The notes below the pieces were generated by a model. The model worked only from the letters and a program-made list of their open reading frames with translations, made no database searches and was not told where the DNA came from. Positions 2,771 through 33,178 of a DNA stretch of 33,178 nt are shown here, piece after piece; the stretch's first letter is position 1; each line of letters begins with the position of its first letter. The DNA lies in NCBI RefSeq assembly GCF_025384765.1, contig NZ_VHLL01000014.1, positions 1 through 33,178 of the forward strand, read 5' to 3'. Origin of the DNA: Methanoculleus formosensis (lineage in GTDB: Archaea; Halobacteriota; Methanomicrobia; Methanomicrobiales; Methanoculleaceae). A program made the position numbers and the translations under genes.

Positions 2771-3248
2771 CAATACTTCACTAATTTTGATACCTGACAT
2801 CAAACGATGCAGTCTCACGCAATGCCGTAATGAAGAGCTGGTGGTAACCCTGATACTGGCCTTCGCGCTCTTCGCGGCTCGAAGCCTACGGCTTCTCACG
2901 CTCTTGTCCTGCGGACAGTCGCGGCTCGCGCCTACGGTGCTCAAGCTCGCTTCGCTCGCACTTCGCGTGAGTTACTCGCTGGGGATTAGTAATACAGTCT
3001 CACGCGAAGAACGCGAAGCCGCGAAGGGAGTTACAGGTAATTACACCGATCTTCGCGTCCTTCGCGGCTTCGCGTGAGTCAACAGGTGCAGATAATGATA
3101 CTGCCTCACGCGAAGGACGACTTTCCCGAAGGGTGCGACGATTCGTAAGAACCGGAGCATGAGCACCGCAGGTGCGATGTGCGACTGGCCGATGGGCAGG
3201 TCGATGGTTTGGCCTTCGGAGGGTCCTCAGAACTGTAGCAAAGTGCTG
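2771..3248. mobile_element. decayed element with degenerate ISH3-like ends
   Basis: The left end CAATACTTCACTAATTTT matches the reverse complement of the IS right end at 16 of 18 positions. The right end GTAGCAAAGTGCTG (3235-3248) matches the IS end at 11 of 14. They face each other as inverted ends 478 bp apart, but no transposase frame lies between and the flanks (TATCC, ATACC) are not a clear target duplication. It may be an old internally deleted relative or a large MITE. The interior is the repeat-rich region described separately. Confidence 0.4.
2810..3114. repeat. cacgcgaag / cttcgcg palindromic repeat cluster
   Basis: This stretch between the sensor gene and the DUF45 gene has no credible gene. 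The unit cagtctcacgc occurs at 2810-2820 and 2995-3005, each followed by a segment ending in a cttcgcg-rich block, so there appear to be two diverged direct copies about 185 bp apart. A perfect 16-bp inverted repeat, cgcgaagccgcgaagg (3012-3027) with ccttcgcggcttcgcg (3059-3074), can form a strong hairpin with a 31-base loop. Another tcacgcgaagga unit follows at about 3099. Such REP-like words are common between genes in GC-rich environmental microbes. The remainder to 3255 shows nothing recognisable. Confidence 0.75.
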
Positions 3249-4661: not shown

Positions 4662-4671
4662 TGCCCCTCCC

Positions 4672-4809
4672 CAGTACTTCGCTCATAACAGCCTCTCCAA
4701 TCGACCCATGCAGCCTCGCACAGCGACCTACACCGGGATCGGCAGCACCCGGACGAGGTCGATGGATTGACCTCTTGAAGATCACTTCAACTGTTTTAGC
4801 GAAGTACTG
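4672..4809. mobile_element. 138-bp MITE related to the ISH3-like element
   Basis: A short non-coding element with inverted ends CAGTACTTCGCTCATAACAG (4672-4691) and CTGTTTTAGCGAAGTACTG (4791-4809). The outer 12 bases equal the IS terminal repeat on both sides, and the right end matches all 14 IS bases. It is flanked by a perfect 5-bp direct repeat CTCCC at 4667-4671 and 4810-4814, the duplication length expected of ISH3-type transposition. It has no open frame and no obvious internal similarity to the IS. The transposase encoded at both window edges is the obvious candidate to have moved it. Confidence 0.88.
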
Positions 4810-4845
4810 CTCCCTCTCTCTGGTACCTCACGCAAAATATGTGCC

Positions 4846-4872: not shown

Positions 4873-4935
4873 TCACAAATTTTAAGTAAGATCCCCGCCT
4901 CCGGCACGCGGGGTGATAGAATCTCCCAGCAGAAG

Positions 4936-5202
4936 ATGGCCATACTATTGATCGCCGGCATCCAGGTTCTGGTTGTCGGCGGGTTGGTTGCCTGTATCGT
5001 CGTTGGAGCACAGGATCGGCCGTCTCCCGAAACCCCGCCCATCACCGAGGCCCGGTATATGGGTGATTGGCCGGCGAGCGCCTCCGCGGCCGCGTATCCG
5101 ATCGCCGGCCACCAGGCTGCGGGTATCCTCTCGGGCGCCGGGGAGACGTTCATCCTCTTTGCGGTAGGGGACGATCCCCCTACCCCATCACGATCTGCAT
5201 GA
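4936..5202 (+). CDS. small single-pass membrane protein, unknown
   Basis: An 88-residue frame begins with a hydrophobic helix (about residues 2-24, MAILLIAGIQVLVVGGLVAC) followed by an outward-facing Pro/Ala-rich tail with no recognisable domain. A strong TATA region upstream supports transcription, but no clear ribosome binding site is visible. The 3' end overlaps the 3' end of the convergent UPF0216 gene by 23 bases, which weakens the case for the last residues. Function is unknown. It could be an exported or anchored small protein, or a chance frame. Confidence 0.45.
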   Translation: MAILLIAGIQVLVVGGLVACIVVGAQDRPSPETPPITEARYMGDWPASASAAAYPIAGHQAAGILSGAGETFILFAVGDDPPTPSRSA

Positions 5203-18598: not shown

Positions 18599-19438
18599 TC
18601 ACTTCCCTTCTTTCTCCCACCAGACCGCCGCGGTCGGCCGCACCGTCGTCTCGACATACTTCCCGGACCCGTCTTCGCGGAGCGTCCGCGAAAAGTAGTC
18701 CCTGACCGGCGAGAGATCCTCCATCCCGGGGTTGTGCATCGCTGCCCAGGCCCGGGCGGCATCTTCGACCGAGTCGTAGATCGCGTCCCAGAAAGCGTGG
18801 TAGATCCGGACGTTCGGGTAGACCCCGGCGTCGTGGAGGATGTTGACCGGGTAGATGTAGTCAGGGTAGCCCTTGCGCATGGTCGCTTCTTCCCCGAAGA
18901 CCGCCCGGTAGAGCGCCATCTCGTCGGGGTCCCGCCACTCGCCCGCGTGCCAGAAGAGGTAGACCGCCCGGCGAGCCGCGGCGTCGAGTTTCTCGAGTGC
19001 GGCGGCGAGGTCGTAGAACCCGAGCGAGAACGCCGCGATGACGACGTCGTGCGGCTCGATGTCCCTGCCGATGACGGTATCCTCCCAGCGTTTCCGGAGA
19101 CAGGAGTAGTTCGTGAGCCCCTCCGCCGCCATCCGCTCCCGGAGGGCGGCGAGCATCCCTTCCGAGGGGTCGAGGGCGGTGACGTGGGCGGCGGTCCGGG
19201 CGACCGGCACGGCCAGCCTCCCTGTTCCGGCACCCACATCGAGTACGGTCTCGCCCTGCCGTGCATCCAGGATCGCGAGTTCCTGCTCGGTCGCCCGTCT
19301 CTCGTCACGGGTGGCCCGGCGGTAGGCGGCGGCGCGTTTGTTCCAGTGAGCGGCCGGATCGCGGCCTTTCTCGACGCGGTCGGGAGAACTTGCGTATACC
19401 GCCTTCCAGAGCTCGTTCCAGTCGATGATCCGCTGCAT
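18599..19438 (-). CDS. class I SAM-dependent methyltransferase
   Basis: The 279-residue protein shows motif I VLDVGAGTGRLAVP (about 65-78) for SAM binding and an acidic ALDPSEGML motif II, followed by a substrate domain ending with WWEKEGK. The region after motif II (FWHAGEWRDPDEMALY and YPVNILHDAGVYPNV) is typical of a methanogen-specific group near the type-11 methyltransferases; the substrate is unknown. The start at 19438 is chosen because of its ribosome binding site (ggagaggg) and TATA-like gtatatac near 19461, rather than the open ATG at 19543. A fragment of a second copy lies beyond the pit gene. Confidence 0.85.
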   Translation of the reverse strand: MQRIIDWNELWKAVYASSPDRVEKGRDPAAHWNKRAAAYRRATRDERRATEQELAILDARQGETVLDVGAGTGRLAVPVARTAAHVTALDPSEGMLAALRERMAAEGLTNYSCLRKRWEDTVIGRDIEPHDVVIAAFSLGFYDLAAALEKLDAAARRAVYLFWHAGEWRDPDEMALYRAVFGEEATMRKGYPDYIYPVNILHDAGVYPNVRIYHAFWDAIYDSVEDAARAWAAMHNPGMEDLSPVRDYFSRTLREDGSGKYVETTVRPTAAVWWEKEGK

Positions 19439-20673: not shown

Positions 20674-20691
20674 CTCCCCCACAGCAGGACG

Positions 20692-20877
20692 GCTAGCATG
20701 CCCTCCGAGGAGTCGAGGGCGGTGACGTGGGCGGCGGTCCGGGCAATCGGCACGGCCAGTCTCCCCATTCCGGCACCCAGATCGAGCACGGTCTCGCCGG
20801 CCGAGGGATCCAGGATCGCGAGTTCCTGCTCGGTCGCCCGTTTCTCGTCACGGGCGGTCCGGCGGCAGGCAGCGGGG
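20692..20877 (-). pseudogene. fragment of a duplicated methyltransferase gene
   Basis: This 186-bp stretch is colinear with 19149-19334 inside the methyltransferase gene, roughly 85 percent alike by eye and in the same orientation. On the minus strand it still encodes the SAM-binding part (ILDPSAGETVLDLGAGMGRL and a TALDSSEGML motif), but there is no start, no stop in the right place, and neither flank is homologous. It lies between the pit gene stop and the DUF1722 gene stop. It is the leftover of a tandem or dispersed duplication with the pit gene now between the two copies. Confidence 0.8.
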
Positions 20878-31859: not shown

Positions 31860-33177
31860 CAGTACTTCGCTAAATCTCCCTCACCTCTCCTTCTGTTTGA
31901 CCTTGTTCTACCATCCTTTCTCTAAACCCGTTGCCGTAACACCGTAATTCCTTTCACCATCCCCATCGATGCCCGGATCGCTTCCCAGATTATGAGTCGA
32001 AAAGCATCGAATCGAAACGCGCGCATTTCAATCGTTCGCGGTCCCTGCTTCACCGGCGAGAAATGTATCCATAAGAGAGCGATCCAGACGTTTTTCAGCA
32101 GAAACGAGATGATTGCATAGAGATACCGAATCACGGGGTTTCTTGTGCTCGTCCTGGGTTTCACCTGGTTGCGCATCCGGTAGGATGCCTCGATCGAGAA
32201 CCGTGATCGGTAGATCCGGTGCACCCGGAGCGGATGCCAGGCAATACCGCCGACAACGTAGCCCAGATTCTCAGCGCCGTATTTTCCTCGTCTCCCCTTC
32301 GCATACTTCACGGCAATGGCAATCGTCAGGGGAAGTGATGGTTTTCCTCTCATCCGGTACTCGGCATACCGGGACTGCGTCCCCTGGAGCAGTGCTTTCA
32401 TGCGGTTGCTCTGCTTCTTGACGGGAACGATGAACGGTACCTGCACCTGGGTCAGAAACCCGAAGACCTTCCGGGTATAGAACTCCCGGTCCAGGCAGAG
32501 GACCTCGACCTTGAGCCCGAGTTCGGCAATCCGGTCGAGGCACCGGGCGATGTACCCAACCTTTGCGATCCCCTGCCGCACCGGATACACGGCCAACGTC
32601 ACCTGCCGGTCTCTGGTGGTCACGTAGAGGGTGATGTAGGAGTAGAATTCGTTCGTCGATTGCTTGCGTTTGCTTCGGAGGATATATGATTCGTTCTCGT
32701 CGGAAGTCTTCCCGTAGTACGGATCGTTGGTGTAGTCAATCGCAAACTGATACGCGTTCCCGGGTTTCAGGACGTGGTGCACGAGGTGGGTGAGGATAGC
32801 AGTGCTCTTCTGCTCCAGATCATCCATAGCCAGTTTGTTGAGATGATAGCGAAATGACGTCTCACAGGGTACATGCTCCAAAAACCCGGTGATCGAGTGA
32901 ATCGATTGTTGCATCGCGGCCATGCCGACCAGAGCCTGAAACAGGTCGGTCTGGGTGAGCCGACCCTGGATCGGGATGGTGAGGTGCTGGTCCAGCGCCG
33001 CAATGGCGTGAGCACAACATTCTTTCGGCTTGAGGTCGTTACTCTTTCTGCAGGTCGTCTTCTTGCTTTTGGCAAAAGGCATGAGGGGACGCCTGCAAAC
33101 GATATAAATCTTTCGTTTTTGTGCGGGTTTCCGGGTTCGGCAGAGAATATGCTGGTTCGAAAATTAGCGAAGTACTG
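31860..33177 (-). mobile_element. ISH3-like insertion sequence, copy 2
   Basis: A second complete 1318-bp copy with the same 14-bp inverted ends (31860-31873 and 33164-33177) and the same orientation as copy 1. The left flank is ATGTA (31855-31859); the only visible right-flank base (33178, A) fits the first base of a 5-bp duplication. It lies beside an older decayed transposase. Confidence 0.93.
31922..33082 (-). CDS. ISH3-like DDE transposase (copy 2)
   Basis: Its 386-residue translation is identical to that of copy 1, with the same D116, D198 and E298 candidate catalytic residues. The frame is intact, so both copies could supply transposase, including to the MITE at 4672-4809. The minus-strand TATA-like sequence before its start is the same as in copy 1. 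Confidence 0.9.
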   Translation of the reverse strand: MPFAKSKKTTCRKSNDLKPKECCAHAIAALDQHLTIPIQGRLTQTDLFQALVGMAAMQQSIHSITGFLEHVPCETSFRYHLNKLAMDDLEQKSTAILTHLVHHVLKPGNAYQFAIDYTNDPYYGKTSDENESYILRSKRKQSTNEFYSYITLYVTTRDRQVTLAVYPVRQGIAKVGYIARCLDRIAELGLKVEVLCLDREFYTRKVFGFLTQVQVPFIVPVKKQSNRMKALLQGTQSRYAEYRMRGKPSLPLTIAIAVKYAKGRRGKYGAENLGYVVGGIAWHPLRVHRIYRSRFSIEASYRMRNQVKPRTSTRNPVIRYLYAIISFLLKNVWIALLWIHFSPVKQGPRTIEMRAFRFDAFRLIIWEAIRASMGMVKGITVLRQRV

Positions 33178-33178
33178 A

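Follow-up and report, generated by a model that had tools for sequence, protein, structure and literature searches.

A minimal 138-bp MITE with ISH3-type ends and its palindrome-bearing relatives in Methanoculleus

Introduction

MITEs whose likeness to an IS partner is confined to the terminal repeats are an established kind of element in archaea, and the partner itself is sometimes lost (PMC3852290; PMC3718332). The archaeal MITEs that PMC3852290 reports from de novo methods resemble the family reported below in being short and gene-less, in their moderate to high copy number, and in an IS similarity limited to TIRs of less than ~20 nt. There are differences as well: none of those listed there comes from Methanoculleus or is labelled ISH3, and a variable-length, modular middle palindrome like that of the present family is not among the structures described in the passages considered here. 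Reliance on a transposase supplied in trans is also known from the archaeal MITEs SMN1 and SM3A of Sulfolobus, although their IS partners are ISC1733 and ISC1058, and although the mobilization of SMN1 has been observed whereas that of the Methanoculleus MITE is one that we infer (PMC3718332).

Insertion sequences of the ISH3 family have CRGT ends, a length of 1225 to 1500 bp and a Y-2-R-3-E-3-R motif, and they generate duplications of 4 to 5 bp that are usually flanked by A and T (PMC2266710). The element described here resembles this family in its CAGT ends and 5-bp duplication, but differs in having no transposase gene and in sharing only 12 to 18 terminal bases with the IS. We found no description of a Methanoculleus MITE in the literature that we searched. 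The analysis below follows a MITE family of the ISH3 type across a methanogen genus, in which both the target duplications and the empty sites are clear.

Results

A 138-bp element with perfect inverted ends

The window, by which we mean the entire 33,178-nt stretch of DNA analyzed, carries a 138-bp element at positions 4672 to 4809 of the plus strand, which starts with CAGTACTTCGCT and ends with AGCGAAGTACTG. Its terminal inverted repeats are perfect over 12 bp, the left one occupying 4672 to 4683 on the plus strand and the right one 4798 to 4809 on the minus strand, and the element is bracketed by two copies of CTCCC (4667 to 4671 and 4810 to 4814, unstranded). Coordinates, length, inverted ends and the perfect CTCCC repeat had all been given in the original prediction, and all were exact on recheck. 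That prediction also held that the ends share 12 to 14 bases with the terminal repeat of the resident IS; we measured identity over 12 bases at the left end and over 15 at the right (4795 to 4809). No ORF with both start and stop lies inside the 138 bp, in line with the predicted noncoding interior. In terms of the family structure described below, the copy consists of a left arm (4672 to 4752) and a right arm (about 4755 to 4809), with no palindrome between them.

When the whole window was scanned for any 12-bp perfect inverted repeat with a spacing of 60 to 400 bp and flanks that form a perfect direct repeat of 5 bp, the element at 4672 to 4809 was the single match, and the same structure was found in none of 20 mononucleotide shuffles of the window. 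With IS-like TIRs, a duplication of the IS length (5 bp), a short body devoid of a transposase gene, multiple dispersed copies and empty orthologous sites, the element is a true MITE whose ends are of the ISH3 type, and as such a new member of the already established kind of archaeal MITEs.

The resident IS belongs to the ISH3 family

Two identical IS copies of 1318 bp are found in the window, both on the minus strand, at 2 to 1319 (transposase 64 to 1224, 386 aa) and at 31860 to 33177 (transposase 31922 to 33082). Their TIR is perfect over 14 bp, CAGTACTTCGCTAA, and the transposase gene is intact. Length and CAGT ends fit the ISH3 range, the transposase scores 269.5 bits against the NCBIfam ISH3 profile NF033541 (cut-off 225), and the Y-(2)-R-(3)-E-(3)-R motif is present as YRSRFSIEASYR at residue 291. 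While the window copies adjoin the contig ends, copies of the IS in two other genomes of the genus (G029 and G027) are flanked by the 5-bp duplications AATAG, ACGCA and GGTGT, which bears out the earlier statement that ISH3-type elements duplicate 5 bp. The window IS is an ISH3 element by every published criterion that we tested. The contig starts and ends in identical full copies of this IS (1 to 1319 and 31860 to 33178), which probably means that the assembly broke at this repeat on either side.

A dispersed family of variable length

In the 2.65-Mb host genome, the 138-mer has a single further match over its full length, at 88% identity, plus about 20 further places in which the two halves lie apart or only one half is found. 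The family is also present in other Methanoculleus genomes, the same repeat occurring in sequence records from M. sediminis and M. chikugoensis, and in genomes of one related family of the order. From Methanoculleus and this related family we assembled a set of 39 copies, representing 33 distinct insertions. Exact 5-bp duplications flank 17 of the 33, as against 0.85 expected by chance when flanks are re-paired at random, and the flanks of 28 insertions match at 4 or 5 of the 5 bases (chance, 4.4). Agreement between left and right flanks was 0.85 at length 5, compared with 0.41 at length 4 and 0.29 at length 6, and the target consensus is roughly RGNCY. Of the multiple copies with 5-bp duplications for which the original prediction asked, the copies are borne out by the host genome and its relatives, and the duplications by the assembled set.

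Most copies are 200 to 370 bp long and carry a palindrome between a left arm of ~81 bp and a right arm of ~54 bp; full lengths with palindrome range from about 200 to 478 bp. The earlier idea of a non-autonomous family holds in that the family is real, but its members are not uniformly 138 bp, which is a rare short form. Among the matches listed for the genus, the exact 138-bp junction occurs only in the two host-genome copies, which have identical junctions and different duplications (CTCCC in the window, GGCCA at the second site). A further palindrome-less copy, of 141 bp, is found in G025.

A second window copy represents the expanded form. This 478-bp member (2771 to 3248, plus strand) follows immediately on the stop codon that closes a PAS/HisKA gene and has the ends CAATACTTCACT and AGCAAAGTGCTG, with flanks ATATCC and ATACC. 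Family arms were detected at both of its ends by BLAST and by profile HMM (profile E values of 8e-14 and 3e-8), and it holds two inner palindromes with unstranded cores at 2964 to 3006 (CGCGTGAG..CTCACGCG) and 3071 to 3112. The insertion has an orthologue in G003, and six other species show a clean empty site that is resolved to the base.

A second repeat, with the end GAGGTCATCCCAAAAAGAT, is nested in several MITE copies; we observed it in L088, L089 and L097 and at 16 places of the host genome, and it is probably another IS or MITE family.

Empty orthologous sites and the downstream promoter

The genes flanking the 138-bp MITE are syntenic across the genus, and the MITE itself had no match at any of 29 orthologous loci. 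An alignment of ten relatives shows the conserved AT-rich promoter of the downstream gene in the absence of the MITE. Among the genomes examined, the insertion is private to the host. Most relatives have a longer spacer on the left side of the MITE position than the window does, and this locus therefore does not define the empty target to the base. Absence from 29 of 29 loci agrees with the empty sites expected at the outset, and nothing that the original prediction had named as speaking against a MITE was found.

Downstream, the AT-rich run begins ~25 bp from the MITE. The conserved TATA-like box TTTTAAGTAA (4880 to 4889, plus strand), aligned in the ten relatives, lies ~70 bp from the MITE and is intact, as is the start of the downstream small gene, with its ATG at 4936. 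With these distances, the "about 40 bp upstream" of the original prediction is approximately right. An effect of the MITE on expression of this gene is possible.

Origin of the element

On the reading that we favor, with a probability of roughly 0.9, the sequence at 4672 to 4809 is the minimal form of a non-autonomous ISH3-type MITE that was inserted in trans by an ISH3-family DDE transposase, duplicating the 5-bp target CTCCC. Common ends and an equal duplication length point to such mobilization. Members of the family comprise conserved left and right arms, mostly parted by an independently changing palindrome, and the window copy most likely lost this palindrome to leave the 138-bp form. 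The family itself would have been built by an earlier ISH3 element rather than by the present IS. No parent IS with a longer similarity to the MITE arms was found, the ISH3 copies of the genus sharing termini only.

It is hardly credible that the sequence instead serves the downstream gene, which encodes a small membrane protein, as a conserved element of a regulatory or RNA kind. Its position upstream of the TATA-like box and a single-sequence fold z-score of about -5 would fit such a role. Yet none of the 29 orthologous loci has it although they retain the promoter, which refutes a conserved feature, and its copies sit at unrelated sites. We also rejected a conserved structured RNA, since an Rfam search gave no match up to E = 1 and no consensus structure remained beyond the terminal repeats (z-score of +1.0 without TIRs). 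More serious, albeit still quite improbable, is the possibility that the MITE was put in place by the very IS that occupies the window edges, as the original prediction proposed. This IS has an intact transposase, a TIR in common with the MITE and the same duplication length, and the insertion is private to the host among the genomes examined. The two have diverged to very different degrees, however: the IS differs by 1 nt from both copies in G029 and by 3 nt from that in G027, whereas no other host-genome copy exceeds 88.4% identity to the window MITE, and the host copies are at most 90.5% identical to each other over the arms. Moreover, no ISH3 transposase was detected in five MITE-bearing genomes (G003, G014, G030, G004 and G015). 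With an IS nearly identical across species, diverged MITEs, and MITE-bearing species that have no detected ISH3 transposase, it is unlikely that the family was built by the window IS, and on this point the earlier proposal found no support as it was stated. The window IS copies, identical to each other and 1 to 3 nt from those of two other species, are evidently recent arrivals. Some MITE copies are found at orthologous sites common to more than one species, implying that the family predates several species splits. The age of the MITE can in this way be separated from that of the neighboring IS. An earlier ISH3-family transposase would be the better candidate for building the family; the window IS may be able to move the surviving copies.

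It is also rather unlikely, though less so, that the 138-bp form is ancestral and that a palindrome was later inserted into one lineage, which then amplified. Such an order of events could account for the identical junction of the two 138-bp copies, for the 141-bp palindrome-less copy in G025 and for palindromes at places where no MITE arms are detectable. The arm tree argues otherwise, in that the 138-bp copies nest among palindrome-bearing ones with moderate support (95/76 and 94/54), which makes palindrome loss likelier than short-form ancestry. The deep branches hold palindrome-bearing copies, some of them from a different family within the order (G039 and G044), and short copies are scattered over different tree positions; interiors also change in place at orthologous insertions, as described below. 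We conclude from the tree that the window copy most likely became the minimal form through loss of the palindrome rather than representing a state before its gain. Since the two 138-bp copies occupy different sites with different duplications, the palindrome appears dispensable for transposition, which suggests that the short form can transpose without it. Alternatively, the junction that these two copies share may have arisen by two independent deletions.

The inner palindrome as a variable module

The least expected part of the analysis is the changes within the palindrome at fixed insertion sites. At one orthologous insertion, the copies measure 274, 273 and 366 bp, with near-identical flanks and arms and a differing interior; at another, flanks and arms are again near-identical and the lengths are 214 and 267 bp. 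In the orthologous copies L160 and L169 (G030 and G014, respectively), the loop has been replaced while the arms and the right flank stayed nearly identical. Generally, the palindrome is modular and consists of TTCGCG-type units that enclose a loop of ~22 to 28 nt, and the 138-bp form is free of any such module. The loop has one orientation in most copies and is inverted in six (L094, L160, L162, L166, L168 and L176), three of which represent a single orthologous insertion.

A search with strict palindrome arms located the core at 24 places in the host genome. Seven of these lie in described MITE copies, including the two in the 478-bp window copy. At least four more (L234, L240, L243 and L245), considered as free-standing palindromes, proved on recheck to be within diverged MITE copies, and L233 has a TIR-like end. 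At about ten loci (L232, L235 to L239, L241, L242, L244 and L246), TTCGCGTGAG..CTCACGCGAA palindromes were observed with no detectable MITE arms.

REP and REPIN palindromes are mobilized by RAYT transposases. The inner palindrome resembles them as a short dispersed hairpin repeat but differs in that it often lies inside a MITE and in that the host genome has no RAYT (Y1) transposase; PF01797 was absent there, while 5 of the 14 genomes used as controls gave a hit, and we therefore rejected a RAYT-driven palindrome. A tentative reading, which we hold to be possible but doubtful, is that the palindrome evolves as a separate module that is gained, lost, extended, or swapped or inverted in its loop while the MITE stays put. 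If true, the MITEs would be carriers of a hairpin repeat spreading by gene conversion or hairpin processing. This separate behavior is worth following up, and orthologous copies with differing interiors offer a natural experiment on long-hairpin change in archaeal DNA.

Elsewhere in the window, a 201-nt direct repeat with 86% identity links positions 19132 to 19332 and 20675 to 20875. The latter stretch lies at the end of a putative phosphate-permease-like ORF and resembles a fragment of the putative methyltransferase-like ORF that holds 19132 to 19332.
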